A stretch of 64,000 nt of DNA from Fidelibacterota bacterium (GTDB lineage: Bacteria; Fidelibacterota; UBA8477; JABMPR01): contig JAERTG010000023.1 of NCBI GenBank assembly GCA_016845065.1, positions 231,553 through 295,552 on the forward strand. The letters run 5' to 3'. Each line of letters starts with the position of its first letter. The first letter of the stretch is position 1. Under the pieces are notes generated by a model. That model was not told the DNA's origin, did no database searches, and saw only the letters and a program-made list of their open reading frames with translations. Shown here piece by piece: positions 3,554 to 20,331 of this stretch. Both the position numbers and the translations under genes were made by a program.

Positions 3554-4906
3554 TTACATCCATTCTTTAGCCTGAATCAGTTGACCTGTTTTGGTGTAAA
3601 GGGAGGCAATTTTTCGTCTCACTTCAGAATCGCCTGGTTGTAATTCGTTCATTCTTAAAAAGATTTGAATTGCAGCATCATATTCCCCCAAACGGATGAG
3701 TATGGTACCAATGGCATTGATATAGATGGGTATTTCACCCTCTATTTTAACAAGCTGACCCAAAACATCTAAAGCAGTATGCCATTTTTCAAGATGTTCC
3801 AATGCGTTGAAATAATTTCTCAGAATAGGTACTGAGCCATCTGATTCCTTGAGGTATGATTCGTAGGCCTGTGTAGCCTCTGCCCAGGATTCAACCTGCA
3901 CATATAAATCACCAAGCGTTTTGAGAATAGCTGATTTATCAATCTCAATATCTGTTGAAATACGCGATCCAGAATTCCGGATCTGGGTGAATTGATCAAG
4001 AATGATACGCAGAGAATGAAGGGCTCCTGCAACATCCTTTTTTGACAAGCAAACACGGTAGGATAAAAAATAGGCAGCATTTTGAATCTTCTCAATATTC
4101 AAAGATTTCTGAATCAGCTCTTCTGCTTCTGGAATGCGACCAAGATCGAAAAGTGTATCAGCAAATGTATTAAGCAATGATGCTTCCATTGCTGGGTCAA
4201 ACTGCTTCAATTCTAAAGCAGCGCGGTAATGTTGCTCAGCAGCTTCAAGTTCATTATCAACTTTATAATTATGCCCCAGTGTATAGTGTGCATAGGCACT
4301 TTTTGGGTTTGAGGCAACCTCAACGAGTAGAATCTTTCGATTCCGTGCCTGTTTCTTTGATTTTTCCTCACCTGTAAAACTATAACCGAAATGATCAAGC
4401 ACGATGTCACAGGATCGTTCCTCAGCATGCACTTTCTTAGCGCTGGGTGAAATTTGTTCGTGAATTTTTCCAGAAAATTGAATCTGTCGATGATTGGTAA
4501 ATAGTCGATGTGCATCAGAAAGTGTGAAATTTACACCATCCTCTTTTAGATTTTTAATGCGTACTTTATAAATGACTGGCGATTTTTCAAATCTGAGAAG
4601 TTTCTGGAGCGTTTGGATGGAATCATGCGTCAAACGTTCATCTGCATCGATCCACAGGATCCAATCGCAGGTAGCATGTTTAATAGACTCATTTCTGGCA
4701 GCAGAGAAATCATCGGACCATTCAGAATGATATACTTCAGCATTAAATGACTTCGCAATATCCAAAGTTCCATCTGAAGATCCCGTATCTAAAACAACAA
4801 TTTGATCGGCTATGGGCTGGATGCTCCTTAGGCATTCCGCCAACATCTTTTCCTCATTTTTTACTATGAGGCAAACACTTAAACTTTTGAGTGGGAGATT
4901 CTTCAA
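3554..4906 (-). CDS. Family 2 glycosyltransferase with TPR repeats
   Basis: This 450-residue protein starts with a GT-A fold family 2 glycosyltransferase (about 8-230). Visible motifs are SVCLIVKNEEKML, the nucleotide-binding VVLDTGSSDGT and the metal-binding ILWIDADERL (DAD near 88-90). The C-terminal half (about 195-450) is built of TPR-like helical repeats, for instance AHYTLGHNYKVDNELEAAEQ. This SunS-like arrangement is common for enzymes that glycosylate peptides or proteins. The start codon appears to be TTG at 4906, eight bases after the stop of the cyclic-nucleotide-binding gene. With the giant transferase upstream it probably builds a surface or flagellar glycan; sugar and acceptor cannot be read from the sequence. 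Confidence 0.85.
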   Translation of the reverse strand: MKNLPLKSLSVCLIVKNEEKMLAECLRSIQPIADQIVVLDTGSSDGTLDIAKSFNAEVYHSEWSDDFSAARNESIKHATCDWILWIDADERLTHDSIQTLQKLLRFEKSPVIYKVRIKNLKEDGVNFTLSDAHRLFTNHRQIQFSGKIHEQISPSAKKVHAEERSCDIVLDHFGYSFTGEEKSKKQARNRKILLVEVASNPKSAYAHYTLGHNYKVDNELEAAEQHYRAALELKQFDPAMEASLLNTFADTLFDLGRIPEAEELIQKSLNIEKIQNAAYFLSYRVCLSKKDVAGALHSLRIILDQFTQIRNSGSRISTDIEIDKSAILKTLGDLYVQVESWAEATQAYESYLKESDGSVPILRNYFNALEHLEKWHTALDVLGQLVKIEGEIPIYINAIGTILIRLGEYDAAIQIFLRMNELQPGDSEVRRKIASLYTKTGQLIQAKEWM

Positions 4907-4914
4907 AGGACTTA

Positions 4915-5895
4915 CTAGATTTTGGCATCCAATTGTTCAAACTCGGCAATCGTCTCGGTCATGCTCAGTTGAGTTTGGAGCTTCTCTTTATTGACAATAT
5001 AGGTTTGGACATTATTCCCATCCAATTTTGAATCAATAAGACCACTATTCCTAAATTTTCCTAATTCAATCTTGTACGTGGAGAGTGGTTCCGCGTGAGA
5101 GGTATCAAATTGTTCCATGAAAAAGGGCTGTTCGATGTCAGGTTCCCACATCTGTTCCTTCATAAACTTGTGTAAAAAGGTAATTATGTGAATTTCCTTT
5201 TCTGTCATTTTCTGAAATTGAGTTTGAACTTCATTCCCCTGTTTCTGGTAAAATCGTGATTTGCAATAATCTGCGAAAAATTTGAAATGGGAATAATCCT
5301 TCATCACCAGCATACGACCGTCTTCCTGGTTCATGACGCTCTTCGCCATGGGTGTCAGGGTGATCTTATTCAGAACAGCATCGACTTGGTCATAGGGCAG
5401 GTTCAGAATTAAGGCAATGTCTTTGACCAATGGTTTCCAGGATGCGATAATTTGATCAAATTTATTTGGTTTGATTGCTGCCAGCATATTACTGACCATG
5501 AGAATCACCTGACGTGAATTGTCCTGGCTGGTCAATGTCTCAGCATGCTTATTCGCATCCCTGAGCCGTTCAGCCAGAATCCGGAAGAATGAGGTTAGCC
5601 AGGGAGTTAAACCATCCAGGTGTTTTTGGAAAAGCATCTTGCTTATTTCAAGACACTGAGTTGTTTCCAGAGCAATTACAGTGGCAGATCGCGGTAATCC
5701 ATCGATAAGAGCCATTTCCCCAAAAACTGCCCCGCTACCCAGGTGAGCATAGACTACTTTTTGATTATTCTTAATGGAAAAGACCTCTACCTCACCAGAC
5801 TGAATGATAAACATTGAAGAACCAGCGTCATTTTCTCTAAAAATGATATCGCCAATCTCAAATCTCCTGGCAGCTTGCCGTTCTACAAAGTTCAT
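4915..5895 (-). CDS. Crp-like cyclic-nucleotide-binding protein
   Basis: The protein has an N-terminal cNMP-binding beta-roll (about residues 9-115) with a good phosphate-binding cassette, FGEMALIDGLPRSATV, whose Glu and Arg are conserved. The C-terminal 200 residues are helical. A stretch around VKDIALILNLPYDQVDAVLNK resembles a helix-turn-helix, but it is not a standard Crp DNA-binding domain. I chose the ATG at 5895 because it overlaps the TGA of the giant glycosyltransferase (TGATG); a GTG one codon upstream is the alternative. Encoded inside a glycan operon, it may let a cyclic nucleotide regulate that operon or the proteins made from it. Whether it binds DNA is uncertain. Confidence 0.8.
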   Translation of the reverse strand: MNFVERQAARRFEIGDIIFRENDAGSSMFIIQSGEVEVFSIKNNQKVVYAHLGSGAVFGEMALIDGLPRSATVIALETTQCLEISKMLFQKHLDGLTPWLTSFFRILAERLRDANKHAETLTSQDNSRQVILMVSNMLAAIKPNKFDQIIASWKPLVKDIALILNLPYDQVDAVLNKITLTPMAKSVMNQEDGRMLVMKDYSHFKFFADYCKSRFYQKQGNEVQTQFQKMTEKEIHIITFLHKFMKEQMWEPDIEQPFFMEQFDTSHAEPLSTYKIELGKFRNSGLIDSKLDGNNVQTYIVNKEKLQTQLSMTETIAEFEQLDAKI

Positions 5896-8800
5896 CACTC
5901 AGTTGCCATATTTTCAAGGATGGAAAGTGCATGCGCCTGTGTGGGATCAACCTCCAAAACTAATTTTGCATAGTTCACAGCATCCGAAGTATGGTCAGCT
6001 TCAATGTTTAACTCTGCCATTCGTAGAAGAGCGATTATATCATCCGGATGATCGGAGATTATATCCAAATAGGCTTTAACACCTTCTTGAAATTTATTGT
6101 CTATAATCAAGACCTCGGCATAATTTCGACGTGCGTCCAACAGGTTAGCATCTTTCTCAGTGGCAATTCTGAAGAATTTTTGGGCGGCCTCATAATTCCC
6201 AGTATCACTAGCAATTAACCCTGAGAGGTTGTAAGCAACTGCATTGTCTGGGCTTAAACGTAACAGCCGACGCGTGAATATGATTGCCTCTTCGATCCGT
6301 TCCGTGATCCGCGCAGCCATTATTAATCCAATAAATGCGTCTTCATGGAGTGGATTCTCATCGATCAATTGTTTCAGCGTATCATAGGCTACTTCATAGT
6401 CCCCTGTCTCAAGTCCTGCCATACCAGTTTGGAGCATCTTTGGATGCAAATCGTTGAGTGGGCTTTTTAGCTCGATAAGTTCATCGTAATCTACATTCGG
6501 CCACTTTTGCCTAAACACCTTTCCTTTGCTTTCCAAGGCAGCCGTATAATCCATCTTATTGGCAATAAAGGTCTGGCTTCCATAATGGTGAATAAACACA
6601 CCTTCGTGAACCATGATGGCATAGCCTTCCCTACTAACCTTTAGGCATAGGTCATCATCTTCATAATTCCCGATTCCAAAGCTCTCGTCCAAACCGCCCA
6701 CATCTTGATACAATGTCTTCTCCATGAGCACTGCAAACCCTGCAATCCTACGCCTAGGGGTGATTCTATTGAGATTCTTTGCAGCCACTTTGGCGGCAAA
6801 TTTGAAAAAGTCTTGATCGTTTTTATAGGGTACATCAGTCAGCATCTGCCGTCCACTAATATGATTGGTTATGGGACCCACCATACCGATACGTTCATCT
6901 AATTCGAGACCTGCAACCAAATTTTCCAACCAGCCCTCTGCAACGAGTACATCATTGTTCAATAAAAGAACATATTTCCCATTTGCTGCTGCCACTCCTT
7001 GATTATTGCCAGCTGCAAAGCCTTTATTCTCAGCATTTTCGATAAGTGTAAAATTCGAATTATTTTTTACAAGCTCCGTAAGGTATTTGGGCGTACCATC
7101 AGTAGATGCATTATCAACAAGAATCAGTTCAAACGGATAACTTGTGTGAGCAAGAATTGAATCCAGACAACGTTTTGTGTAATTAAGGGCATTGTAGGTT
7201 AACAGGATGATGGACACGAGTGGTTTTTTATCAAACTCACTGCTCTCAAATATCTCCTTAATAACCTGTTTAGCGTGTTTGGGTGACCAACGATCTTCAA
7301 CATATTTCTTGCCAGAAGAAGAGAGATGATTCCAAAGATTTTCATCATTATAAAGTTTAATCATCGCTTCAGCAAAAGTATCTACATCATCTGCAATCAA
7401 CGCGTGGGTTTCATCTTCAAGATTCATTCCTTCAGCCCCGATGGTCGTCGTTACAACAGGTAGACCCCACGAAAGTGCTTCTCCAATCTTCCCTTTCATA
7501 CCAGCGCCATACCTCAAGGGGCTAACGGAGACACGAGAATCCAGTAGATAGGGTTCCAAATCCTCAACATAGCCAGTAATAATCACACTTTCCGTTCTGT
7601 ATTTTAAAATTTCCTTAGGTGGATTATTACCAACGATATAAAGTTTCACGTCAGGAAGTGATTTTAGGACCATTGGCATGATCTGTTCACATAAATACAC
7701 AATGGCGTCGATGTTAGGAGTATGGTCAAAATTGCCAACAAACAAGAAATCGCTGGTTTCCTTATAAGATTTGCTCGCTTCGATCATATTGTGAATATTT
7801 GGAACAATATCCATGGGGGTCTGGGAAACATATTTGCTTATCGCTGCCTCATCATCCAGCGTTACATTCCACAATCTATCTGCCAATTTATATAGTGCAA
7901 TTTCACGCTTTTTCTTTCGACGTGCTTCTTTTAGTTTAGCTTGATTCTTTTCTAATTCGGCCTCACGGATTTCCCTTAAAAAGTGAATATCGATGCTATC
8001 TACAATTATTTTTGATCGAGGAGAATATTTACGGACAATCGGTAAGTAATATTCGGCGAGATTCCAGAAATCTAGAATCACATACTGATATGATCGTTCA
8101 GCAAAAAGTAATTCATAATTCAAATTATCTTTTGATTGGTCAATTTCATAGCCCATGGAGCGCAACGCAGCAATATCACCTGCAACTGTCAATATGCCCA
8201 GCGACTCCAATATGGGTTTATATATTTGGTGGTGAGTACTTGTCCTCGAAATAAAAGTTACATGATAACCCAGCTGCTTCAATATCTTAAGAATTTGAAA
8301 TAGCCGCAGTGAGCCTGATGCTCTATCATAAAATGGCAAAAATGGATCAATTACCATGATGTTCATTTTTGTGGACCCGCGGTCAGAAGCTCGGGTAACA
8401 CTTGATGGATGATTTGTAGTTTGAGCCTTTAATTCATGTTCCCACTTTTTTAAAAACTTCTGGCGATTGATCGGTTGATATCGCTTGTAACCAGTGGCCA
8501 TATCAGTACCAGCCGTCTTACCTTCATAGTGAACAACCACACTATGTGGATGATAATATACCTTTTTGCCTAATTTTCGAATTGAGAAACATAGATCAGT
8601 ATCCTCATAATACGCTGGCGCATAGCGTTGGTCCAAACCTCCGATAGCTTCCCAGTCCTCAGATCGAATCATGAGTGAAGCACCTGAGCAATAGTCAACC
8701 TCCCTGACATAATTGAATCTTGGGTCATTAGGGTTTTCGCCTCGGCCATAATTCCAACCATTACCATCAGAGAATATTATTCCACCAGCTTCCTGCAGTG

Positions 8801-11800
8801 ATTTATCAGGATAGACCAACTTCGATCCGATTGCACCACAATCCTCATGCTCCCCCATAAATTCAACCAGAGGTTTTAGCCAATTTGCTTCTACCTCAGT
8901 GTCGTTGTTTAGAAGGAGAATGAAGTCTCCTTTACAGGCATCAGCTCCTGCATTGCAACCATCAACAAAACCCAGATTTGATTTACTTGAAACGATGGTG
9001 ATGTGATCACCTGGCAGCCCAGCTAAATAGTCGCCAGTCCCATCAGTCGAGGCATTATCTACAATGACTATCTCGTAGTTTGGGTATCTTGTATTTTTAA
9101 ACAAGGCATCTATACAATCCTTTGTATAATCAATATTATTGAAGACAGGGATAACGATAGATACTTTTTTAAATTGCTTTAATTCGTTCGCATTCAGACC
9201 ATCACTTGCATGGCTCGTTACTGGCATAAATTTGTCAATTTCATTCCTGTATTCACGTTTCGATAAAGGATATTCTCTGGCAACAAGTACTTCTGTAGGT
9301 GTTTGAAAGAGATATAACAATTTAGAAACTTTATTCAACTTTTTCACCCGCATGAAAGCCTGAGTGGCAGCCAAATTCTTTTTTTCAAGCATCTTGATAT
9401 CGAGTTCAATTATTTGATTAATAATGCTGAGATCTATTCCATCTGAGGGGTTAAAATTATTCCCATAAACCCGGTCAATAAAGCGGTTCATCAGGGTGGA
9501 GAAAGGGAAAAACATTTCGATATCAAAATACTCGTCCAGAAGCTGCAATATGTCTTCAGCCCGAATACCCTCGAACCCATGTTCACTACAATCAAAATTA
9601 TATGGGATTTCATCTAATTTATGGCTGTAAGCGTTTATTTTGAAGCGATCATCTAATCTGGACCAGATTTCAGCCACAACTTTTTCAGTATTATCCCACA
9701 TCACATGGCCATTACGACCAATCATATCATTGATGAGAAAGATCATCTCATCGGTGGATTTATTATTAATCTCTTTAAAAAGACGTTCTAGCTCCACGAT
9801 ATGATGCAAGGAATGGTTGGCAACCACAATATCCAATTGATCTGGTAAATCCGGATAATTCAAATCTTGAGTTAAAAATTGAACGTTTCTCAGCCCTTTC
9901 TCTTTGGCAGAAAGTTTAGCTCTTGCTACCATTTCTGGGTTTACATCAACTCCAATGAGCGTAAGTTTTTCAGGATATTTTATCTTTTGAAAGAGTTCAA
10001 TTTCCTTATCACCATTGCCACAGGCGATGGAAAGCATCCGAACTGGTCGATCAAGCTGTTCCATAAGATCATCTATATCGTGGATCCACCAGTCACTCCA
10101 ATCGCCGCAACTCGTTAATTTTTCAAGGTTGGGAACCAGAAAATGATTGGCATAGATGTGATGAATTTCTGGAAGGTCATGGACATTCGTATTGTGTTCA
10201 TATATGGAAATTTCTGTACTAAGTTTTTTCTGATATTCTTCGGATCCTTGCAGTTCATGATCAGAATCCGAAGGGAGGGTACTATCGGACGATGGAGATG
10301 GGGAAGCTTCGTCGATTTCCTTGGTTACGTTCTCGTAGGCCTTAACAAATTTTATAAGCTCATCATTGTCAGTCTTATTACCTGTACTGTGGTCATAATT
10401 TGATTGACTAGAGCTCAATATTTGAAATAGTTCTGTTGCAGATTCCACATCACCTTTTTCTAGGAATTCATTTCCAGCCTTAGAAATGAGTTTGAAAATA
10501 TTGGAATTGCATACAACTAAATCTGAATATTTTTCCGTCAAGCGGTCATAGGACGGAACTTTAGCAGGGTAGGGTATATTCTGATCCAAATCATCCAATA
10601 AAGAATTAAAAATTGAATCCTCATCATCAAGAACTTTGAAAAAGGTAGAGTCAATCCCATTATTTCTAGTCATTTCCAGGGAATCCTGCAAGAATCGCCC
10701 TAACCAGGCACCGTTATAAAAATATCTCCTTGTGATGGAATAGTGGGTGATCATCCAGTGGAGTAGATCATCTTTTTCTGCAGGATGGGCACTAAGTACT
10801 TCCTCGATAGAGTCGAGTGAGGTAGCATCCGCCATGTAATGGAAACTCTGACCCAGGACGATTAGTTTTTTGTCCCACATGAGGGTTTGCATACCTACGC
10901 TCGATGAGACGGTCACCACCCCATCGACACTTGACAATAGGAATTGGGAAGCCCCATAGTAATCCTCAAAAGCTTCATGATGGATAAAATGCTCGTATTG
11001 AAGCTCTAGAAAAGCTATCGTACTGCTACTCAAAAGATTGTATTCAGGATGGGTAGTAACAACTACACCAATATTTTTTGGCACTCGATCAAGAACATAA
11101 ATCAAGTAGTCATATTGTGATTTAAAATCGGAGACACCATCGAAAGAGATATAGTCAGAAAATTGCAATGGCAGTAAAATCAGGTGATCAAATTGCTTTT
11201 TAAAATCGTCGAACAGATCACTGAAGGGATTTTCCTCACCTAATAGGGATTGGATCTGGGTCTTAAAAGTCGTGACCCTAAGCTTTTGAATTTCATCTAG
11301 TTGATACGATTTTCTAATCTCAAGCCAATACTTATCCAGATAGCTATGCGCCAATACTCCCTGTGGATCTAAAAACCAGGATTCAGGAAAAGGGCTTCGT
11401 GAAAATAGGCTATATTCTCTATGGAGAACCAGGACATCCTTAAATGTTTCATTGAAAAAAGGAGCTGGTGAATATGTGATGACGATGTCTGGGACGAAAT
11501 TAGAAAGTCGATCCTGAAGCAGCTTTCCATAGGCTGCCATTTGATCGCTAGTATAGGTTTCGTGATACCATGCCAGGCTGACCTCCAATGAATTTTTGTT
11601 CTCAAATGAATCCATTAGATCCTGCTGAGTAAGCACAAATTTTTCTACATCTTCAATGGCATTATATTTATGATCCAATGCCTCGTTGATCATGACCCCA
11701 TACCTAAATTGATCGGCGAACGCTGAATTTCTCAAAGCCTGGATCATATCCAGACTAAAACTATTTAACCAGCCTTCCTTCCAATACGGATTGCCTCTTT

Positions 11801-11849
11801 CAATTAAAGGTTCTACATAGAAAAGGATATTTACTTTTGGGGTACTCAT
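5895..11849 (-). CDS. Giant multidomain glycosyltransferase (KpsS/C-like, methyltransferase, GT2, GT4, GT2, TPR)
   Basis: The 1984-residue protein carries at least six domains. Residues 1-440 resemble capsule polysaccharide KpsS/KpsC-type transferases (LILLPLQFSDYISF, VTTHPEYN, VVTVSSSVGMQTLMW, LIVLGQSFHY). After a Ser/Asp-rich linker (about 510-540) comes a class I methyltransferase (585-780; LSIACGNGDKE, GVDVNPEM). A first GT2 domain spans 895-1140 (VSIVIPVFNNIDYTKDC, LLLNNDTEVE). A GT4-type domain spans 1162-1520 (FVGNFDHTPN, GAGMKGKIGEALSWGLP). A second GT2 domain spans 1545-1780 (VSIILLTYNALNYTKRC, LLLNNDVLVAEGW). TPR repeats fill 1800-1984. Each transferase domain keeps its nucleotide-sugar motifs. 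The N-terminal fold belongs to a group that uses CMP-Kdo, matching the CMP-ulosonate genes immediately upstream. It probably assembles a methylated oligosaccharide; the acceptor is unknown. Confidence 0.85.
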   Translation of the reverse strand: MSTPKVNILFYVEPLIERGNPYWKEGWLNSFSLDMIQALRNSAFADQFRYGVMINEALDHKYNAIEDVEKFVLTQQDLMDSFENKNSLEVSLAWYHETYTSDQMAAYGKLLQDRLSNFVPDIVITYSPAPFFNETFKDVLVLHREYSLFSRSPFPESWFLDPQGVLAHSYLDKYWLEIRKSYQLDEIQKLRVTTFKTQIQSLLGEENPFSDLFDDFKKQFDHLILLPLQFSDYISFDGVSDFKSQYDYLIYVLDRVPKNIGVVVTTHPEYNLLSSSTIAFLELQYEHFIHHEAFEDYYGASQFLLSSVDGVVTVSSSVGMQTLMWDKKLIVLGQSFHYMADATSLDSIEEVLSAHPAEKDDLLHWMITHYSITRRYFYNGAWLGRFLQDSLEMTRNNGIDSTFFKVLDDEDSIFNSLLDDLDQNIPYPAKVPSYDRLTEKYSDLVVCNSNIFKLISKAGNEFLEKGDVESATELFQILSSSQSNYDHSTGNKTDNDELIKFVKAYENVTKEIDEASPSPSSDSTLPSDSDHELQGSEEYQKKLSTEISIYEHNTNVHDLPEIHHIYANHFLVPNLEKLTSCGDWSDWWIHDIDDLMEQLDRPVRMLSIACGNGDKEIELFQKIKYPEKLTLIGVDVNPEMVARAKLSAKEKGLRNVQFLTQDLNYPDLPDQLDIVVANHSLHHIVELERLFKEINNKSTDEMIFLINDMIGRNGHVMWDNTEKVVAEIWSRLDDRFKINAYSHKLDEIPYNFDCSEHGFEGIRAEDILQLLDEYFDIEMFFPFSTLMNRFIDRVYGNNFNPSDGIDLSIINQIIELDIKMLEKKNLAATQAFMRVKKLNKVSKLLYLFQTPTEVLVAREYPLSKREYRNEIDKFMPVTSHASDGLNANELKQFKKVSIVIPVFNNIDYTKDCIDALFKNTRYPNYEIVIVDNASTDGTGDYLAGLPGDHITIVSSKSNLGFVDGCNAGADACKGDFILLLNNDTEVEANWLKPLVEFMGEHEDCGAIGSKLVYPDKSLQEAGGIIFSDGNGWNYGRGENPNDPRFNYVREVDYCSGASLMIRSEDWEAIGGLDQRYAPAYYEDTDLCFSIRKLGKKVYYHPHSVVVHYEGKTAGTDMATGYKRYQPINRQKFLKKWEHELKAQTTNHPSSVTRASDRGSTKMNIMVIDPFLPFYDRASGSLRLFQILKILKQLGYHVTFISRTSTHHQIYKPILESLGILTVAGDIAALRSMGYEIDQSKDNLNYELLFAERSYQYVILDFWNLAEYYLPIVRKYSPRSKIIVDSIDIHFLREIREAELEKNQAKLKEARRKKKREIALYKLADRLWNVTLDDEAAISKYVSQTPMDIVPNIHNMIEASKSYKETSDFLFVGNFDHTPNIDAIVYLCEQIMPMVLKSLPDVKLYIVGNNPPKEILKYRTESVIITGYVEDLEPYLLDSRVSVSPLRYGAGMKGKIGEALSWGLPVVTTTIGAEGMNLEDETHALIADDVDTFAEAMIKLYNDENLWNHLSSSGKKYVEDRWSPKHAKQVIKEIFESSEFDKKPLVSIILLTYNALNYTKRCLDSILAHTSYPFELILVDNASTDGTPKYLTELVKNNSNFTLIENAENKGFAAGNNQGVAAANGKYVLLLNNDVLVAEGWLENLVAGLELDERIGMVGPITNHISGRQMLTDVPYKNDQDFFKFAAKVAAKNLNRITPRRRIAGFAVLMEKTLYQDVGGLDESFGIGNYEDDDLCLKVSREGYAIMVHEGVFIHHYGSQTFIANKMDYTAALESKGKVFRQKWPNVDYDELIELKSPLNDLHPKMLQTGMAGLETGDYEVAYDTLKQLIDENPLHEDAFIGLIMAARITERIEEAIIFTRRLLRLSPDNAVAYNLSGLIASDTGNYEAAQKFFRIATEKDANLLDARRNYAEVLIIDNKFQEGVKAYLDIISDHPDDIIALLRMAELNIEADHTSDAVNYAKLVLEVDPTQAHALSILENMATE

Positions 11850-11867: not shown

Positions 11868-12494
11868 TCAGAATGCTTTCACAGATGTAAGAATTTCCGG
11901 TATCGATACCTGCTGGTCAATAAGAGAGATAATCCTCTCTTCCTCTTTTACCACCATCTCGATTTCCATTTGCACTGCATCGATAATCGCAGTAGGTATG
12001 ATGACTAAAGCATCACTATCAGCGAAGAGTAAATCTCCGCTTGAGAGTGGATGTCCACCAATCATGATACTGCCATCAGTAGATTCCACCCGCCCTCGAC
12101 CTTTGATATCGACGGGTGAATATCCTCTTGCCAGAATGTTAAGCGGGCATCGGTCATGCGTATACACTGTATCTCGGGTAAGACCATCGATGACTACACC
12201 ACCAATTCCTTGGCGAAGGGAAAGGCGGGTCATCATTTCACCAAAATACGCAAAATCTGGGCTTCCCTCTACAACTAGAATTTCACCTTCCTTTACATCC
12301 CCTACGAACGTCAACCCAACATCTATTCGCTCATCATCGGTATCCATGCTGACCAATTGGAGGGTACGCGCATAGCCCATCATCCGGAAAGGTTTATTGT
12401 TCGCAAACCAGCCTGTGATTACCTGATTCCGATAGCCCATACTATCCAAAATGTCTGAATACATACCGGAGCACAATTTCTCAATACTTATCAT
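11868..12494 (-). CDS. RraA-family aldolase-like protein
   Basis: The 208-residue protein belongs to the RraA / 4-hydroxy-4-methyl-2-oxoglutarate aldolase fold. Family motifs are visible: FGEMMTRLSLRQGIGGVVI followed by DGLTRD (residues 103-108, with the conserved Arg and Asp), and SGDLLFADSDALVIIP near 152-167. Aldolase members of the family cleave or form C-C bonds of pyruvate-derived 2-keto acids using a divalent metal; others bind RNase E. Its ATG overlaps the stop of the CMP-sugar synthetase/phosphatase gene by 4 bases. In this operon an enzyme acting on a 3-deoxy-2-keto acid is more plausible than an RNase regulator. That is inference; regulation or proofreading of the ulosonate pool is equally possible. 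Confidence 0.8.
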   Translation of the reverse strand: MISIEKLCSGMYSDILDSMGYRNQVITGWFANNKPFRMMGYARTLQLVSMDTDDERIDVGLTFVGDVKEGEILVVEGSPDFAYFGEMMTRLSLRQGIGGVVIDGLTRDTVYTHDRCPLNILARGYSPVDIKGRGRVESTDGSIMIGGHPLSSGDLLFADSDALVIIPTAIIDAVQMEIEMVVKEEERIISLIDQQVSIPEILTSVKAF

Positions 12495-13669
12495 TCCACA
12501 ACCTCCACCTGAATTAGATCATGCAAATCTCGTAAACATCCTTCACCTCCAGATTTACTCAACACGATGTCTGAGACAGCAGTCACACTAGGATGCGCAT
12601 CTAATGGAACGACTTTCAGATCACACAGCTGCATAGCTTCCAGATCATTCACATCATCTCCCAAATAAATCGTTCTACTTAGATCAAGTTGATATTTTTC
12701 CACCAAATGAAGAAGCCTATCAACTTTTGGCCCAGTCCCAACATCGATATGGTCGAAGCCTATATGATTTCCTCGGTTACTAATTAGTTGTTCATTGATA
12801 CCTGAACTTAACATGACTAAAGTCATACCCATTTGCTTCAACAGCTTTGAAGCGATTCCATCTCGGGTATTAAAGTTTTTTAGCTCATCTCCGGATTCTG
12901 AATAAATCATCTTTCCATCGGTGAGGACACCATCAACATCACAGATCACTACGTTTGCATTGGATAAACGTTTTTGGATGTCTGCATGGAGGAGCTGTCG
13001 AGATTTATATGGACTTGTTACCTCCAACCCTCTTTCGATATAATTAGCTAGTCGCAGATCAGCTTCATAGTCAATATCGATTTGCTCAATCTTTGGAATT
13101 TCTATGAAAGTGTAATTATTCCCAATACGACGCTGACAATCAGCATGAGCTTCAGCTGTGATCATATAGAGCCCCATGGTCTCAAAAATGGTCTGATCCA
13201 GATTGAATGAATTTGGAATAAGAGCTATATCATAAGATGGCTTGCCCTCCTCCGACCATAGGTAGAAGTACTCCTTACCGACACAAACAATTGAATCATA
13301 ACCATCGTCTAGAATCAGTCTAAGCCCTTGCTCAAGTGTTTCTTTTGAGCAAAATGCCATGGGTGGAAGATGTTGGATATATAAATCATTCTCGGGATAA
13401 TTTGAAACTTCCCAGGCAAAGAATCCATTTCCGTCAGTGGCATTTGTAGCTAAATCATCTGGGCGTAGAAGGGTTTCAAAACCATGATCTTTTGCGATAC
13501 CAAGAATATCATGATCATCTGAATCGACAACAATACTGGTTTTTGGTAGGATTTGATGGAGGTTGTAACATGCGCGCAGGAAAAGGGGTAATCCACCGAC
13601 TTTTCTCATGTTTTTTCTATGCAACCGACCGCTTCCACCTCTAGCAGGAACGAATGCGATCATCTTCAT
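12491..13669 (-). CDS. CMP-ulosonate synthetase fused to KdsC-like phosphatase
   Basis: This 392-residue bifunctional enzyme joins two domains. Residues 1-230 are a CMP-sugar synthetase (NeuA/KdsB superfamily) with the CTP-binding loop FVPARGGSGRLHRKNM, a modified QHLPPMAF segment where NeuA proteins usually have QPTSP, and IDIDYEADLRLA near the end. Residues 236-392 are a HAD phosphatase of the KdsC type with DVDGVLTDG (244-252), the GPK lysine and GDDVNDLEAM (337-346). The same domain order is known in vertebrate CMAS and in Bacteroides CMP-KDN enzymes. The expected job is dephosphorylation of a ulosonate phosphate and activation of the free acid with CTP. ATG-stop overlaps on both sides show strong coupling to the synthase and the RraA-like gene. 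Confidence 0.9.
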   Translation of the reverse strand: MKMIAFVPARGGSGRLHRKNMRKVGGLPLFLRACYNLHQILPKTSIVVDSDDHDILGIAKDHGFETLLRPDDLATNATDGNGFFAWEVSNYPENDLYIQHLPPMAFCSKETLEQGLRLILDDGYDSIVCVGKEYFYLWSEEGKPSYDIALIPNSFNLDQTIFETMGLYMITAEAHADCQRRIGNNYTFIEIPKIEQIDIDYEADLRLANYIERGLEVTSPYKSRQLLHADIQKRLSNANVVICDVDGVLTDGKMIYSESGDELKNFNTRDGIASKLLKQMGMTLVMLSSGINEQLISNRGNHIGFDHIDVGTGPKVDRLLHLVEKYQLDLSRTIYLGDDVNDLEAMQLCDLKVVPLDAHPSVTAVSDIVLSKSGGEGCLRDLHDLIQVEVVE

Positions 13670-14484
13670 ACCAGCTCCCTGCCCACCACTTTCGCAATAT
13701 CTTTCATTTGAGAATAAAGAAGCTTGAACTCTTCATGCGAAAGGGCCTGATCTTTATCACATTGGGCGTACTGTCTATCAGGGTGGACTTCGATAATAAC
13801 ACCATCACAACCAAAAGCGATGGCTGCTTTGGCTAACTTGGGAACTCCAAAACTATAACCAATTGCATGTGAAGGATCTAGAACCATTGGTTGACGGGAT
13901 CTCTCCTGCATGACGGCAGCGCCACATAAATCGAGGGTAAAGCGGGAAGATGATTCGAAGGTGCGGATTCCTCTTTCACAAAACATGACATTTGCATTGC
14001 CCTGAAGTATGATATAATCAGCCATTTTCATCAATTCATCTACGGTGGCTCCAAAATGACGTTTCAAGAGAATTGGTTTTTTAGCGGCACCGGCTGCCTT
14101 TAACACCGAGTGGTTATACATGGCTTTAGCACCGATCTGGATAATATCAGTATATTTGGCAACTGTGTCAAAGTTGGCCATATCCGTCACTTCTGTGATC
14201 AGAGTTAGACCGTAACGATCTCTAGCCTCCGCCATCCAACTTAAACCTTCTTCTCCAGAGCCTTGGAAAGAATACGGATTTGTGCGCGGTTTAAATGCGC
14301 CCCCCCTCAGAATTTTCACACCAAGGTGAGACATAAATTCAGCCGACGCTAGAATTTGATCGCGGCTTTCAATCGCACAAGGACCAGCCATCACTACAGT
14401 TTCTTTTCCGGTGAGAGTGATCTCTGGATTAAGTTCTATTTCATGAAAATCGTTATCATATTTTTTAGCGCACTTTAAATCCAT
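13666..14484 (-). CDS. DAHP-synthase-family 3-deoxy-ulosonate-phosphate synthase
   Basis: The 272-residue protein is a single-domain type I-beta DAHP synthase homologue. It condenses phosphoenolpyruvate with an aldose phosphate. Family motifs are MAGPCAIES (metal Cys at 36), LRGGAFKPRTNPYSFQG, ERGIRTFE, DPSHAIG (metal His) and IEVHPD, then CDKDQA. It lacks the regulatory ferredoxin-like or chorismate-mutase domain of housekeeping enzymes. The acceptor-side segments differ from the usual IGARNMQNF and KRGMSAT types: they read IGAKAMYNH (117-125) and KRHFGATVDE (141-150). It is not a KdsA, because the KdsA-type KKANRTS region is absent. Together with its neighbours this suggests a dedicated ulosonate synthase rather than shikimate-pathway DAHP synthesis; the acceptor sugar (C4 or C5 phosphate) is unknown. 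Confidence 0.88.
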   Translation of the reverse strand: MDLKCAKKYDNDFHEIELNPEITLTGKETVVMAGPCAIESRDQILASAEFMSHLGVKILRGGAFKPRTNPYSFQGSGEEGLSWMAEARDRYGLTLITEVTDMANFDTVAKYTDIIQIGAKAMYNHSVLKAAGAAKKPILLKRHFGATVDELMKMADYIILQGNANVMFCERGIRTFESSSRFTLDLCGAAVMQERSRQPMVLDPSHAIGYSFGVPKLAKAAIAFGCDGVIIEVHPDRQYAQCDKDQALSHEEFKLLYSQMKDIAKVVGRELV

Positions 14485-14498
14485 TTTGTGATCCCTCT

Positions 14499-15503
14499 CT
14501 AGATTCCTCGGTTGAAATCTATGGCACCAATCAATTGATTAGATTCCCTTATCACGGGAATGACATTGATACCCTTATTCAGTTCAAATAATCCCTTCAT
14601 TATGTGAGATAGTTTATCGTCCCAGGTCACGTTATAAGGGTTTGCATTCATAATATCCCGAGATCTTTTACTGAAAATATCCTGCTGGTACTGTATCAAA
14701 GCTTTGCGAATATCGCCATCTGAAATGATACCCAATAAATTATCACTGGAGTCTGTGATAAAAACCACTCCCAATCTATATTTACTAATTGTCTCAATTA
14801 TATCAATAATATGGGCATTTTCATCCGCGATTGGCAGGTGACTTAATGGTTGCATGATCTGTTTGGCATTTAGCCCATTTCCATTCTCATAATGAAGGTT
14901 AAAGACATTCTCAAAAATCTTATTCCCACCTGCTAGGTAGGAACCACTAATTATGATTTTGACACCGAGTTGTTTCATGATCCCAGCATTAATATTCTTG
15001 ATACCACCATCGACATGGATGGGACAATCAGGCCATAATTTTGATATTGTTTCAATGCGATCAATATTTCTATCATCAAATTTTGCGCCTGAGATTCCAG
15101 GTTTGGAACACATAATTAATACATAGTTGGTGACATTAATATAGCTTTCCAATACATCCAGAGGCGTATCCATGGTGATAGCTAAGCCCCACTTCCCATG
15201 GAAGCTTTCTAGAAGTGATAGATTATCCTTATTATCTAGATTTTCATACTGCACTGAGAGGTATTTAACTTTTGCCTTATTAAGGTAATAGATATCCGTT
15301 TCAGTAAAGTCAGCAACAACAAGATGAACATCAAGGGGCATGTCTACCTGTTTGTTAAAGTTTTCCAGTTCAATGATAGGAATGGGAGCCTCGACACCAT
15401 CCAGGTAGTCAATATGCAGCATATCAACTTTAGAGTATTTGAGCTTCATCGCATATTCATGATAATCTTCGTGAACCGAGAATAACGAGGCGGATATTTT
15501 CAT
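14499..15503 (-). CDS. Ribulose-phosphate-3-epimerase-like enzyme fused to KdsD-type CBS pair
   Basis: The 334-residue protein has an RPE-type TIM barrel (1-210) with the metal and catalytic residues kept: ISASLF, LHIDYLDG (His30, Asp32), LDVHLVV (His60), LIMCSKPGISGAKF and HVDGGI (Asp165). The C-terminal 120 residues are two CBS domains with LGIISDGDIRKAL and the start of the second at SRDIMNANP. These closely resemble the CBS pair of arabinose-5-phosphate isomerase KdsD, where an SIS domain sits in front. I start at the ATG at 15503, preceded by GGAAG; a GTG five codons upstream gives a longer form. It heads the operon and should supply or regulate the sugar phosphate for the next enzyme. 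The fusion is unusual. Confidence 0.88.
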   Translation of the reverse strand: MKISASLFSVHEDYHEYAMKLKYSKVDMLHIDYLDGVEAPIPIIELENFNKQVDMPLDVHLVVADFTETDIYYLNKAKVKYLSVQYENLDNKDNLSLLESFHGKWGLAITMDTPLDVLESYINVTNYVLIMCSKPGISGAKFDDRNIDRIETISKLWPDCPIHVDGGIKNINAGIMKQLGVKIIISGSYLAGGNKIFENVFNLHYENGNGLNAKQIMQPLSHLPIADENAHIIDIIETISKYRLGVVFITDSSDNLLGIISDGDIRKALIQYQQDIFSKRSRDIMNANPYNVTWDDKLSHIMKGLFELNKGINVIPVIRESNQLIGAIDFNRGI

Positions 15504-15525
15504 CAATTTATCTTCCACTATTTCT

Positions 15526-15605: not shown

Positions 15606-15642
15606 AAAAGCAAATCAGACAAGTGATCATCCCTAATCACTT
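15606..15642 (-). terminator. Weak hairpin at the end of the MinD-like gene
   Basis: On the minus strand AAGTGAT, which includes the TGA stop, pairs with ATCACTT around an 8-nt loop (stem ends 15642 and 15621). It is followed by GTCTGATTTGCTTTT. A second short hairpin, CCCAG-TG-CTGGG, follows. Together they may separate flagellar from glycan transcription, but the T-run is broken and read-through is likely. Confidence 0.3.
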
Positions 15643-16803
15643 CAATCCCAACATTTTCACAAATCGTTGTAGCCCGCTGCCCCGTTGTTGTTGCACGGGT
15701 GCTTCAACCAGACTTGACCCAAGATAATTGACTGCCAATTGCCTGTAGTCGATGGCCAAATTTGATTTCGGATGTTTTAGACCAATGATCTCACGTTTTG
15801 AATAGGTATCAACCAATCGGTCCCGATCAGATATGACAGAACCCAAATACTCGGGAAATATTTTGAATATGGAATTCTCATTTATATGGTTATCGATTGT
15901 TCGCTTCAGGGAATGATACAAATTCTTTCCCTGACGCATATTCTGAACTTGATTCAAGATGAACCAAGGTGAGTAGACATATTCACCAAGTTCTCTATCT
16001 GAGGATTCAATTTTGCTGTTTATCTCAACAAATCGTCCATAGGTAGCCTTGGCAGCTGCATAACCAGAAATGATATCATTAGGAGTGGTGACAATAATGG
16101 AATCATCGGCCATTAATGCAAAATCGATGACATGACGCGTAATTCCAGCACCTAGATCAAAAAGAATCAGATCATATTTGGTTGATATGGCCTGAATATG
16201 TCGAAAAAAGCGCTGTTTTTGAGCCCAGGTCATATTAGCTAACTTGAATTCACCACATTCACCAGGAATGAAATCAAATCCAAAGGCTGTTTTCACAACC
16301 AGCTCATCCAACTCTACCTCTTTATTGAAGAAGTTATACAAAGTCAGTTCAGGAAATATCTTTAGCTTGTTAGAGACATCTGCATTACCCAGATCCAAAT
16401 CAAAAAGTAGAGTTTTGAGACCCATACGGGCAAATTGATGTGCCAATTCAATAGAAATTGTTGTCTTCCCCACACCGCCCTTATTGGAGATCACGGATAG
16501 AATGTTACCGCGGGGTGCAACTTGATTCTGCTTTTCAGAAATCAGCATGCGATGATAAATCCCCTGCTTGATTAGCTTGAGTTCATGCTGAAGCAGTTCT
16601 GGTTGAATAGAATAGAAGGATGTTTCGTAGCCAGTTGCGAGCTGACCAACATTGCGAATAAATTTGTGGTGCTGTTGCGCCCCTGGAGCATGAGCAGTAA
16701 TCAGTTTATCATTTTCAACCGCTATTGGTAAAAATTCATGGTGCTTTAAATGAATTGGGTTGAATTTTTTTACCAGTCCACTATCTATAATCAATTCGCG
16801 CAT
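15637..16803 (-). CDS. MinD/FlhG-like ATPase with GspE-N-like N-terminal domain
   Basis: The protein of about 388 residues has a MinD/ParA-type ATPase domain from about residue 100, with deviant Walker A ISNKGGVGKTTISIE, switch LFDLDLGNADVSNKL and ILFDLGAGI. The first 90 residues (ELIIDSGLVKKFNPIHL, FLPIAVENDKLITAHAPG) resemble the N-terminal domain of type II secretion/pilus ATPases (GspE-N/MshEN family). The full MshEN c-di-GMP motif is not visible. I start at the ATG at 16803, which follows an AGGAGGG box; a TTG at 16824 would overlap csrA. A canonical FlhG lies elsewhere in the cluster (29752-30648), so this is a second, distinct paralogue. It may position a surface structure or regulate flagellar number; the substrate is unknown. 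Confidence 0.85.
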   Translation of the reverse strand: MRELIIDSGLVKKFNPIHLKHHEFLPIAVENDKLITAHAPGAQQHHKFIRNVGQLATGYETSFYSIQPELLQHELKLIKQGIYHRMLISEKQNQVAPRGNILSVISNKGGVGKTTISIELAHQFARMGLKTLLFDLDLGNADVSNKLKIFPELTLYNFFNKEVELDELVVKTAFGFDFIPGECGEFKLANMTWAQKQRFFRHIQAISTKYDLILFDLGAGITRHVIDFALMADDSIIVTTPNDIISGYAAAKATYGRFVEINSKIESSDRELGEYVYSPWFILNQVQNMRQGKNLYHSLKRTIDNHINENSIFKIFPEYLGSVISDRDRLVDTYSKREIIGLKHPKSNLAIDYRQLAVNYLGSSLVEAPVQQQRGSGLQRFVKMLGLK

Positions 16804-16807
16804 TGGG

Positions 16808-17062
16808 TCAACGTCCCTCCTCAATTGCTGGGGTGTTAACTTTTTTCAATCCCAGCAGGATATTCCCTATCTCAGCTGTACTTGCATTTGCAGCTATATT
16901 CTGTTCCTGAATCTTTTCATATATTTCATTACGATAGACTGCAACACTCTTGGGTGCATCAATCCCTATTTTTAATTGCGCTGTGGAACCTTCCAGAATG
17001 GAGATAATTATATTATTTCCAATTCGAATACTTTCTCCAGATTTTCTCGTCAGTATCAGCAT
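16808..17062 (-). CDS. csrA: Carbon storage / translational regulator CsrA
   Basis: The 84-residue protein begins [15 protein letters not shown] and contains [11 protein letters not shown]-type residues ([21 protein letters not shown]), the RNA-binding surface of CsrA. CsrA represses translation by binding GGA motifs in leaders; in many flagellated bacteria its target is flagellin mRNA. FliW, the protein antagonist of CsrA, is encoded directly upstream with a 24-bp gap, the usual partner arrangement. The C-terminal tail of about 25 residues is longer than in E. coli CsrA (61 residues). Such extensions are typical of FliW-regulated CsrA and are the region FliW contacts. Confidence 0.97.
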
Positions 17063-17086
17063 CCTGTCCCCGGTTCTTTATTCAAA

Positions 17087-17551
17087 TTATGATAATTCAT
17101 GCTTTAGTGGATATTCCATTGATAAATGTGGATCATCAATAACCACCTGGTTTCCCATACCTGATTTTGGATTAAATACAAGCGGTGCTTTTACATTCGC
17201 CGTTATTTCCTGGGTCCTCGGATCGGCCTTAAGAATTATATATTGATCAGCTTCCGTGATTTTCTGTATGCCCAGGATATCAAGCTCTCTTTCTGGAACG
17301 ATGACATCTTTGCAGATGGCTAACAATTTTGCATTTATTGCCAACATTGAGATTTCTGGTTGATCCGCTGATTTGAGAACACAAAATGGAGCATAATCTT
17401 GAATATCAGCGATAATAAATGTATGCAAATGCTCGAATCCAGGTAAACCTTGAATCAGACTAACGTGTTTGCTGGTTTGAAGTGGCAAGTCTTCGAAGGT
17501 TTTGTTCATAGGACCACTTTCAGTTGACGTATTTTCTGTAATAAGACTCAT
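17087..17551 (-). CDS. fliW: Flagellar assembly factor FliW
   Basis: The 154-residue protein contains the FliW family core: LIQGLPGFEHLHTFIIAD, PFCVLKSAD and a late APLVFNPKSGMGNQVV segment. FliW binds CsrA and flagellin. When flagellin is exported, FliW is free to sequester CsrA, which couples translation to assembly. Its start overlaps the flgL stop by 4 bases (ATGA) and csrA follows. An N-terminal extension of about 15 residues before the core could mean that the internal ATG (MNKTFEDLPL) is also used. The flagellin gene itself is not in this window. Confidence 0.95.
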   Translation of the reverse strand: MSLITENTSTESGPMNKTFEDLPLQTSKHVSLIQGLPGFEHLHTFIIADIQDYAPFCVLKSADQPEISMLAINAKLLAICKDVIVPERELDILGIQKITEADQYIILKADPRTQEITANVKAPLVFNPKSGMGNQVVIDDPHLSMEYPLKHELS

Positions 17552-18429
17552 CTTATAAAATCCATTATATTTAATTGTAAGGCTTTTGAAGTAACTTGAA
17601 GAGCTGCTTCATAGGCAAGCTCCTCACCATTATACTCCATAATCACCTCTGCCATATCAGCGTCTTCTGTATCTGAAATTGTTGATTGAATATTCAATAT
17701 TGCAGCCTCTAGTCTGGATTCACTCATGATCATGTGGTTTTTGATAAGGCCGTTGCTTGATTCTAACTCCAACACATTTTCTGATGAAGTTTCAAGATTT
17801 TTGAGATAATTAGCAACGGTGTCTGTATCATTCGCCCTAAGCGCATCTCGAATACCTATTAGAGTATCAAAAACTCCAGAGTCTATCAGATCAGATCCAG
17901 ATATATTTATCTCGACATCCAGACCTTCAGATATGCGACGACTTATTTTACCGTCATTACCGCTATAAGTAACCGAAGTCCCATCATAATCAAATGGTTG
18001 TAGATTGTTCGTATCTGTTCCTGAGAATATTGATTTCCCCAGGTATGTACTGTTTGCAATGGAAAGTGTTTGATCCAGAATACCATCAATACGGTCAGCC
18101 AGGACTTGACGAGTATGCCCTGATTGTGCTAAATCTGCCCCCTGAATGGCTATTGACCTCGATTCAACGACAAGTGAGTGAAGATCACTCATAGCCAGTG
18201 CATTATTATCAACAAATCCGGCTCCATCATTTGAGTTACGAATGTATTGATTGTACTGTGACAAGGTTTTACGATATCTGGTTACTCTGGCAAATTTTAT
18301 TGGATCATCTGATGAGTTTAAAATCGATTTACCAGTTGCTGCAGAATTTTGTAGTTCACTCATATGCTCTTTGCTTGTATTTAGATTTTGCATCAAATTT
18401 CTTGACATGATAGATTGAGTAATTCTCAT
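17548..18429 (-). CDS. flgL: Hook-filament junction protein FlgL
   Basis: The 293-residue protein has flagellin-like terminal helices. The N-terminus is MRITQSIMSRNLMQNLNTS with the conserved SGKSILNSSDDP-type segment (TGKSILNSSDDPIKFARV). The C-terminus ends YEAALQVTSKALQLNIMDFIR. It forms the second junction layer (HAP3) between hook and filament and is exported by the flagellar type III apparatus. It follows flgK after a 13-bp gap and overlaps fliW. The length is typical for the family. Confidence 0.96.
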   Translation of the reverse strand: MRITQSIMSRNLMQNLNTSKEHMSELQNSAATGKSILNSSDDPIKFARVTRYRKTLSQYNQYIRNSNDGAGFVDNNALAMSDLHSLVVESRSIAIQGADLAQSGHTRQVLADRIDGILDQTLSIANSTYLGKSIFSGTDTNNLQPFDYDGTSVTYSGNDGKISRRISEGLDVEINISGSDLIDSGVFDTLIGIRDALRANDTDTVANYLKNLETSSENVLELESSNGLIKNHMIMSESRLEAAILNIQSTISDTEDADMAEVIMEYNGEELAYEAALQVTSKALQLNIMDFIR

Positions 18430-18442
18430 CTCTGCTCCTTCA

Positions 18443-19798
18443 TTAGATCAACGCCATAACAGATTGAATTAGCTCATCGGCTACAGAAATCATACGGCTA
18501 GCCGCCTGATAAGCTTGTTGATATTTAACCAGGTTGGACATCTCCTCATCAATGGAAACACCAGAAATTGAATCCCGGCGATTTTTTAGTGAGTCGATTA
18601 CAATCCTTTGACTATCCCTTAAAAAACTTGATTCCTGTACTTTGCTCCCAACCTCGCTTATAATTGAATTATAATGATCCGAAAACTTTTCATCACGTAG
18701 GAGATTAACATTTTGAAGATCGGCAATTCGAGTAGCAATGGAACCATTTCCTGATTCATCTGGTCGACTGGAACTAGCAATTAAGTGTGGATCCTCGAGA
18801 ATCGCAGTACTCACAGAAAAATCGCTGGCTCCGCTCACTTTGGGATCAAAAAAGTTGATTCCAGTGTCATTATCCAAATTGTAGCCCGATTGATGAACGT
18901 CATTAACTTCCGTGCCAATGGCGATAGCTAAGGCATCTATTTCATTTAAATAATTCGGTATGCTATTGTTGTGGACTTCTAATAAACTCCCGAGTTTCCC
19001 ACCCGTGATTGAACCGATTGAGCCACCTTCAGAAAAGCTCACAATGGTTGAATAATATGCAGTATGTGCTTGGATCGTGACCTTTAGGTCATTAGTGAAG
19101 TTAGTGTTTACCAGAGGGACAGATATATCACCACCGGTACTAATACTGACGATATGATCACTTCTCTCAGTAACATCAATATTGATCAATTCGGAAAGCT
19201 TAGAAATTGCTGCATCCCTTGAATCTGCAAGATCATACGAATAATTCGTAGACACTTTTTCGTTGATATTCTGGATTTGATTCAACAGAAGGTTAACTTC
19301 CTTTACAGTGCCCTCCACATCGTATCCGATCTCCTTTTGCATATTGTTCAGATCCGAATCCAGCCTGCTAAAAGTATTAGATAGGAGGATTCCCTTGTCC
19401 TTGACAATAGCTCGAGCGGTGTTACTCTCCGGGTCGTTCGCCAAATCATTCCACGAGTTCCAAAACTCACTCATCATACTTGACAATCCAGAGCTTCCTG
19501 GCTCATTGAATAGTGACTCAATTTGTGAATAAATAAGTTCGTCAGTCTCGTGTTGACCTAAATGTTGATTTTTATTCCATAATTGTCTTTGTATAAAGCC
19601 CGATTCAAGTCGATCTATATGATCTTGTTCACGGAATCCAAGCCCACTGCTGGGTGAAATCAATGCACCAACATCGGTCCTTCTACGAACGTAGTCAGTG
19701 TTTCCAACATTGGATATATTGCGTGCCGTTGTTTCAATAGCAGACTGATAGGCTGTTAAAGCGACGCGAGACGTTCCCATTAGATTGGATATTGACAT
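18443..19798 (-). CDS. flgK: Hook-filament junction protein FlgK
   Basis: The 451-residue protein starts with the rod/hook family motif (SAIETTARNISNVGNTDYVRRR) and ends with the matching helix YQQAYQAASRMISVADEL. FlgK (HAP1) forms the first junction layer on the hook. The middle includes WNSWNDLANDPESNTAR, a FlgK hallmark. It is shorter than the enteric protein (about 547 residues), so the variable outer domain is reduced. It lies between the chaperone gene flgN and flgL, as in many bacteria. Confidence 0.96.
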   Translation of the reverse strand: MSISNLMGTSRVALTAYQSAIETTARNISNVGNTDYVRRRTDVGALISPSSGLGFREQDHIDRLESGFIQRQLWNKNQHLGQHETDELIYSQIESLFNEPGSSGLSSMMSEFWNSWNDLANDPESNTARAIVKDKGILLSNTFSRLDSDLNNMQKEIGYDVEGTVKEVNLLLNQIQNINEKVSTNYSYDLADSRDAAISKLSELINIDVTERSDHIVSISTGGDISVPLVNTNFTNDLKVTIQAHTAYYSTIVSFSEGGSIGSITGGKLGSLLEVHNNSIPNYLNEIDALAIAIGTEVNDVHQSGYNLDNDTGINFFDPKVSGASDFSVSTAILEDPHLIASSSRPDESGNGSIATRIADLQNVNLLRDEKFSDHYNSIISEVGSKVQESSFLRDSQRIVIDSLKNRRDSISGVSIDEEMSNLVKYQQAYQAASRMISVADELIQSVMALI

Positions 19799-19806
19799 TT
19801 ATTTCC

Positions 19807-20331
19807 TCACACCTGACAATCCACATTAACTCTGTGGTTCCGTTTATCAGCAATCCGCCCAAGACCACTATAATGAATATTTTCATTATCATTGCCACCC
19901 AACAGGACGTGGGCCAGTCCTCTCACTAAATCCACTGAAGAACGTAGTAGAAAATCATTCTCACGATTTGCATGAGCAATTTGATCAATACTCTCGATTA
20001 GACGTTCTCTAGCAAAGACCAGCTTCTCTGAGTAAATGGCTGGGGCGAGATGGATCAAGTCAGTTAAGGAAGGTTTCGTGGGACTTGTACCTAGGACTGC
20101 ACTGATTTTAACCGCGTATAACTCCCTTTTATTGGAAATCGCTTGTATCTTGGGGATTAATCTTTGTTCTTGATAAACATATTTTTGCAAAGCATCCACA
20201 TCGCCATTAACAATACTGGTTTGTTTATCTTTAAGGAGCTGACTCAATTCTTGATATAATTTGACTTCATTGGAAAGGTTGAGAACTAACTCCTCGAAAG
20301 CCCCATCAATATTTCTTATCAATTCATTCAT
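19807..20331 (-). CDS. flgN: FlgN-like export chaperone
   Basis: The 174-residue protein is predicted to be all-helical. It has the FlgN-type N-terminus (ELVLNLSNEVKLYQELSQLLKDKQ) with alternating hydrophobic heptads and a middle QRLIPKIQAISNKREL. FlgN binds the C-termini of FlgK and FlgL and delivers them to the export gate. Position directly before flgK and overlap with flgJ support the call. Sequence conservation in this family is low, so the identification rests on length, helical pattern and place in the operon. Confidence 0.8.
   Translation of the reverse strand: MNELIRNIDGAFEELVLNLSNEVKLYQELSQLLKDKQTSIVNGDVDALQKYVYQEQRLIPKIQAISNKRELYAVKISAVLGTSPTKPSLTDLIHLAPAIYSEKLVFARERLIESIDQIAHANRENDFLLRSSVDLVRGLAHVLLGGNDNENIHYSGLGRIADKRNHRVNVDCQV

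Follow-up and report, generated by a model that had tools for sequence, protein, structure and literature searches.

A candidate CMP-ulosonate pathway with an exchanged set of enzymes at a flagellar glycosylation locus of a Fidelibacterota bacterium

The window analysed here is a stretch of 64,000 nucleotides of contig JAERTG010000023.1 from a Fidelibacterota bacterium. On its minus strand, four intact open reading frames (ORFs) form one cassette, which occupies positions 11868-15518 in the ORF list. The product of the cassette is probably a 3-deoxy-2-ulosonic acid distinct from both 3-deoxy-D-manno-octulosonic acid (Kdo) and the nonulosonic acids, which would be activated with cytidine monophosphate (CMP) for a flagellar glycosylation locus. 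Judged from sequence, the putative class of the pathway, an undescribed CMP-ulosonate route with a new combination of enzymes, is well supported; the substrate, the C7 size and stereochemistry of the product, the RraA step and the acceptor we infer. The literature searched yielded no description of such a cassette.

All four genes are read from the minus strand. A fusion of an RPE-type epimerase (residues ~1-205) with a KdsD-like CBS pair (residues ~216-335) comes first (RPE-CBS, 14499..15518; PF00834, CBS). Its longest ORF opens with GTG at 15518, and the ATG at 15503, preceded by GGAAG, is the likelier start. It is followed by a putative phosphoenolpyruvate (PEP)-condensing enzyme of a divergent type I-beta subfamily, resembling 3-deoxy-D-arabino-heptulosonate 7-phosphate (DAHP) synthase (DAHPS; 13666..14484; TIGR01361/PF00793), by a CMP-ulosonate-type synthetase (residues ~1-225) fused to a KdsC-type phosphatase (~235-392; CMP-HAD, 12491..13669; PF02348, TIGR01670), and by an RraA-type protein with the class II pyruvate-aldolase fold (11868..12494; PF03737). 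Families were assigned at the domain level with Pfam and NCBIfam at scores far beyond chance, and with the frames intact these matches bear out the four families proposed in an initial annotation of this DNA. That annotation also described four overlapping genes, which holds for the DAHPS/CMP-HAD and CMP-HAD/RraA junctions (4 bases each) but not for RPE-CBS and the DAHPS start, which are separated by 14 bases. A large glycosyltransferase gene (1984 residues) starts 18 bases past RraA and is therefore probably co-transcribed with the cassette.

The synthase matches DAHP_synth_1 at 3e-66 and scores 310 bits against TIGR01361 (cut-off 268). The KDO8P synthase model gives only 110 bits against a cut-off of 314, so the protein is not of the KdsA type. 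It lacks an N-terminal regulatory domain. In a tree that included 39 ordinary DAHPSs drawn from several phyla, it formed one clade with its two counterparts from the gene modules described below (support 100/99, 200/200 bootstrap trees). Relative to the ordinary enzymes, the clade carries the substitutions R120K, N121A/S, Q123Y, E156D, P190A, A226C/V/I, L241K/Q and G244K. R120, N121 and A226 are each invariant in all 39 ordinary DAHPSs and changed in the three module synthases, and the module residues at 123 and 244 differ from nearly all of the 39. From the offset to Thermotoga numbering and from motif position, we take R120 to correspond to a PEP-binding arginine and G244 to follow directly on a metal ligand. 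The metal ligand positions C36, H206, E232 and D243 are kept, as is the KPRT motif. Its separate clade and altered invariant active-site residues set the protein apart from housekeeping DAHPSs. The concern that it might be the sole housekeeping DAHPS of the genome is removed by a second DAHPS, 42% identical, located elsewhere in a shikimate operon with aroA, aroE, aroC, aroK and aroB (named by eye). Short second DAHPSs (~290-300 residues, 46-48% identical) also occur in four genomes of the phylum (L085, L086, L087 and L090), outside aro operons in the stretches read; as counterparts of the cassette gene they were rejected, none of them lying in such a cassette.

The RPE-CBS protein matches PF00834 at 5e-24 and CBS at 8e-11, the latter with similarity to KpsF-type CBS domains. 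Its N-terminal part is an RPE barrel and not an SIS-type KdsD isomerase, the likeness to KdsD being confined to the CBS part. The metal and acid residues of RPE (H35, D37, H65 and D170) and those of its phosphate loop (G141, G144, G171 and G192-S193) are retained. In contrast, the pocket residues of ordinary RPE (Met39, Met67, Val138, Phe142 and Gln145, in part within the MSVNPGFGGQ loop) are changed in 3/3 module members. One further, separate RPE is encoded in the genome. The solved structure nearest to the CBS pair is that of the KdsD (arabinose-5-phosphate isomerase) CBS pair 4o9k, which was reportedly solved with CMP-Kdo; by analogy, it is a fair guess that the CBS pair senses a CMP-sugar end product.

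The CMP-HAD fusion matches PF02348 at 2e-10. Its phosphatase belongs to the KdsC type, scoring 123.5 bits with the TIGR01670 subfamily model (cut-off 107) and falling below the cut-off of the KdsC equivalog model, and it keeps the motifs DxDGVLTDG and GDDVNDLEAM. The predicted structure lies nearest to the CMP-Kdn synthetase 9t4z (Kdn, 2-keto-3-deoxynononic acid) and to KdsC structures, and KdsB models match the CMP domain over residues 1-78 only. Although the synthetase keeps 42 columns invariant in 11 full-length relatives, it has lost K14 and the residues of the RRQ and TSP motifs, likewise invariant in these relatives, and so does not bear the sugar motifs of CMP-nonulosonic acid synthetases. 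At least six of the 11 relatives sit near a NeuB, and CMP-HAD also occurs in plasmid NeuB clusters. Since catalytic residues are kept and specificity motifs altered in the synthase, the epimerase and the CMP synthetase alike, the three enzymes appear from their sequences to retain their chemistry and to have changed their specificity.

The RraA-type protein (PF03737, 1.8e-19) contains the motif E86-x20-R107-D108, which supplies by position the catalytic arginine and the metal-binding aspartate, Glu86 standing 21 residues before R107. The RraA relatives include pyruvate aldolases that depend on such an Arg-Asp pair, among them the Pseudomonas putida enzyme with catalytic R123 and metal ligand D124 (PMC5065237), and a dehydratase/decarboxylase that acts on a 2-keto-3-deoxy sugar acid (PMC8563752). 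By analogy with these relatives, RraA probably handles the ulosonate itself.

Searches of other genomes establish which part of the cassette is conserved. Full-length RPE-CBS fusions were found in two genomes (G905 and G1020) among 399 of the phylum of G103 (Butyrivibrio, Bacillota). In both, RraA, RPE-CBS and DAHPS are adjacent, with identities to the window proteins of 48 and 51% for RraA, 32% for RPE-CBS and 47 and 48% for DAHPS. A HAD phosphatase and an acetolactate-synthase-like thiamine enzyme follow, a neighbourhood that fits a free 2-keto acid product, the outcome expected from PEP condensation followed by dephosphorylation. Upstream lies a glucose-1-phosphate cytidylyltransferase gene, and G905 also carries a CDP-glucose (CDP, cytidine diphosphate) 4,6-dehydratase and RfbH (the rfbF/G/H set); the neighbours in G1020 were named by likeness to those in G905. 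RPE-CBS fusions were not found in 100 relatives, in 16 genomes with CMP-HAD relatives, in the phyla of G112 (395 genomes searched) and G102 (193 genomes searched), or in the plasmids, phages and viral contigs searched; viral scans returned no matches, and no cassette-like DAHPS was found in 245 genomes of the window's own phylum. Because the triplet recurs in the two Bacillota genomes and the CMP synthetase was not seen there, we read RraA, RPE-CBS and DAHPS as the conserved unit, with CMP activation as a local outlet. The CMP-HAD fusion is an ordinary NeuB partner in other bacteria and stands outside this unit, and RraA is its most conserved member, not an accessory. The proposed co-occurrence of all four families is thus borne out for three of them.

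The cassette occupies a well-defined place among flagellar genes. Upstream, on the same strand, lie genes for an FlhG/MinD-type ATPase, a CsrA-like protein, FliW, FlgL, and FlgK-like and FlgN-like proteins (15637..20331; FlgK, FlgN and CsrA named by eye). In another species of the same genus (G001), pseB, pseC, pseF and pseG (named by eye) come right behind flgL, fliW and csrA (71, 52 and 78% identical) and run up to the contig end, so that CMP-sugar genes stand at the same place in a relative. A third member of the genus (G011) has oxidoreductases, a split transketolase pair and a methyltransferase ahead of the large glycosyltransferase; G021 has, downstream of fliW (L056, 1-3304), a NeuB-cupin fusion (503 residues), a HAD-like gene and a thiamine enzyme; and G022 has no genes between fliW and the large glycosyltransferase. 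The downstream frame, consisting of the C-terminal part of the large glycosyltransferase, a cyclic-nucleotide-binding protein and a GT2-TPR glycosyltransferase, recurs in several genomes of the same genus and, in part, across the order. Given these exchanges within a conserved frame, gene order indicates a flagellar sugar slot into which different biosynthesis cassettes can be exchanged. The cassette of the window takes the position at which G001 keeps its putative genes for pseudaminic acid, a sugar known from flagella. As side observations, the slot of G011 (L138, 11184-17171) appears to hold yet another sugar pathway, and that of G021 parallels the Bacillota module with NeuB replacing DAHPS.

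The large glycosyltransferase (5895..11849, minus strand) combines an N-terminal PF05159 Capsule_synth region of the KpsC/KpsS family with a methyltransferase, GT2, GT1, GT2 and TPR domains. PF05159 includes the KpsC/KpsS transferases that use CMP-Kdo. The Capsule_synth-like segment (residues 207-359; 10773..11231, minus strand) scores 36.5 bits in the window genome (G000) against a cut-off of 20, compared with 16.2 bits, below the cut-off, in the pse-bearing G001, and no such segment was found in the N-terminal part of the G011 protein. The C-terminal part is conserved in genus and order; the N-terminal part has no match in any relative searched and differs in every species whose N-terminus is in hand. 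The large glycosyltransferase is a likely user of the CMP-sugar, and the pattern suggests that its N-terminal module is swapped together with the sugar cassette. A structure model of this part was poor (predicted local distance difference test score, pLDDT, 35.5) and was set aside. Two further genes of the frame follow on the minus strand: a cyclic-nucleotide-binding-domain protein (4915..5898; PF00027), 65-66% identical in G001, G002 and G011, and a SunS-like GT2-TPR glycosyltransferase (3554..4906; TIGR04195 below cut-off), 58-61% identical in G002 and G011. Elsewhere in the window, an 866-residue ORF without an NCBIfam match (45179-47779) lies in a part of the flagellar cluster where the AT skew is strong.

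In the rest of the genome, whose assembly is 93% complete, no KdsA-type match and no KdsD with CBS domains was found. The initial annotation had stated that KdsD, KdsA and NeuB are all missing, which stands for those parts of the window that were read and, for the first two, extends to the genome in these terms, but NeuB is present on contig C32. There (locus L066, 8920-12460), NeuA/PseF-like, NeuB, Kdn-9-phosphatase-like and WaaA (Kdo transferase)-like genes lie in a row, and a Kdn-type sugar may take the place of Kdo in the lipid A core. A KdsA match is likewise missing from the listed genomes of the genus and order, and other families of the phylum have one.

Taken together, the genes outline a possible pathway. 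The RPE-type enzyme would epimerise a sugar phosphate, its CBS pair possibly responding to the end product. The DAHPS-like enzyme would then condense PEP with an aldose phosphate, for which a tetrose 4-phosphate is the likeliest candidate; the KdsC domain would strip the phosphate; and the CMP-synthetase domain would use cytidine triphosphate (CTP) to form the CMP-sugar. The adjacent large glycosyltransferase, through its Capsule_synth-like segment, or another local glycosyltransferase would transfer the sugar, probably to flagellin. RraA might act on the 2-keto-3-deoxy acid by aldol cleavage (as quality control), C4 epimerisation or dehydration. Because the KPRT motif is of the DAHPS type, a tetrose phosphate (C7 product) is preferred over a pentose phosphate (C8 product), and the acceptor is probably C4 and the product probably C7. 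Epimerisation of erythrose 4-phosphate at C2 would place the reacting carbon at the same distance from the phosphate as in ribulose 5-phosphate at C3; no support for RPE acting on erythrose 4-phosphate was found in the literature searched. More tentatively, and with rather less than even confidence, the RraA, RPE-CBS and DAHPS-like module of at least two phyla could be a general route to a C7 3-deoxy-heptulosonic acid from an epimerised tetrose phosphate, yielding a CMP-heptulosonate for flagellin here and, through the thiamine enzyme, branched higher sugars in Bacillota.

Several points weigh against this interpretation. No CMP synthetase was found among the ORFs around the two Bacillota modules. 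Since the wider searches found no more, all four genes together are known from a single genome, and the module of three genes from three genomes. The tetrose substrate is argued from the KPRT motif and from the analogy of RPE geometry, and the acceptor may be other than a plain tetrose phosphate, because the substitutions at N121 and Q123 lie close to the active site and G244K introduces a charge. Flagellin is the probable acceptor by virtue of location. Finally, the scheme leaves RraA without an explained role. The undescribed route with swapped enzymes that the initial annotation put forward gains from the separate DAHPS in the genome, the distinct synthase clade, the co-occurring module and the flagellar sugar slot, and must be amended in that CMP-HAD falls outside the conserved module.

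Membership of the cassette in the Kdo, NeuB-type and shikimate pathways was considered and rejected. The Kdo pathway (KdsD-KdsA-KdsC-KdsB) shares its order of functions, namely an isomerase or epimerase with a CBS pair, PEP condensation, KdsC phosphatase and CMP activation. A variant pathway to Kdo or a Kdo epimer would have the DAHPS-like enzyme convert a pentose 5-phosphate (e.g., arabinose 5-phosphate) to an octulosonic acid, with RPE-CBS replacing KdsD. This order, the KdsD-like CBS pair, the KdsC-type phosphatase and the lack of a KdsA-type match in this genome speak for it, and related archaeal DAHPS enzymes are promiscuous toward pentose phosphates. We nevertheless regard it as unlikely. 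The cassette has an RPE barrel in place of an SIS isomerase, a synthase with the DAHPS-type KPRT motif in place of KdsA, a NeuA-type CMP synthetase that KdsB models cover only in part, and an extra RraA; moreover, RPE epimerises ketoses without making an aldose, which would leave the route one isomerase short. The nonulosonic acid pathways (pseudaminic, legionaminic, Kdn and sialic) resemble the cassette in the CMP synthetase-KdsC phosphatase fusion of NeuB clusters and in its pse-like flagellar position, but the cassette contains no NeuB-family synthase, has a DAHPS-type enzyme instead, lacks amino-sugar genes and has lost the RRQ/TSP motifs.

Clusters for CDP-3,6-dideoxyhexoses with a thiamine carboligase (yersiniose type), to which caryophyllose also belongs, house the Bacillota relatives of the module, and their coupling to a thiamine enzyme and CDP-sugar genes raises the possibility that the 2-keto-3-deoxy acid serves mainly as a donor for carboligation to branched higher sugars, the CMP step being secondary here too. 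This seems improbable for a window that has CMP activation, with the CMP-HAD gene directly overlapping the DAHPS gene, and neither a thiamine enzyme nor a CDP-sugar gene among the ORFs around the cassette. Still less probable is that the DAHPS-like protein is an extra shikimate enzyme accompanied by unrelated passengers. It does exceed the TIGR01361 cut-off and shares barrel family, metal ligands and KPRT motif with type I-beta enzymes (AroF/AroG of Bacillus, Thermotoga and Pyrococcus), but it belongs to a separate clade with common active-site changes (R120K, N121A/S, Q123Y, G244K) and lies outside the aro operon, which has its own DAHPS; the same neighbours recur in another phylum, and the cassette sits exactly at the flagellar sugar slot. 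The least credible explanation is a decayed, non-functional remnant of a sugar locus; the loss of several CMP-domain motifs and the single occurrence of the four-gene set would agree with decay, but all frames are intact and overlapping, catalytic residues are kept, and the DAHPS and RPE substitutions are common to distant relatives.

To our knowledge, all known CMP-activated bacterial ulosonic acids derive from synthases of the KdsA and NeuB types. If the module is a general C7 route, it would stand beside KdsA and NeuB as a third way of making ulosonates from PEP for glycans. Acidic sugars of a DAHPS-derived type would form an additional class, one now obscured by annotation, because all four genes receive the names of housekeeping or sialic acid enzymes. 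A natural C7 ulosonic acid, 3-deoxy-D-lyxo-heptulosaric acid (Dha), exists in plant rhamnogalacturonan II (RG-II), its nucleotide form and synthase being listed as unknown (PMC12168206). Dha has the size of the proposed product but is a plant sugar and an aldaric acid, without a sequence link to the cassette. The cassette would be a source of testable enzymes for C7 ulosonates such as the Dha of plant RG-II (PMC12168206).

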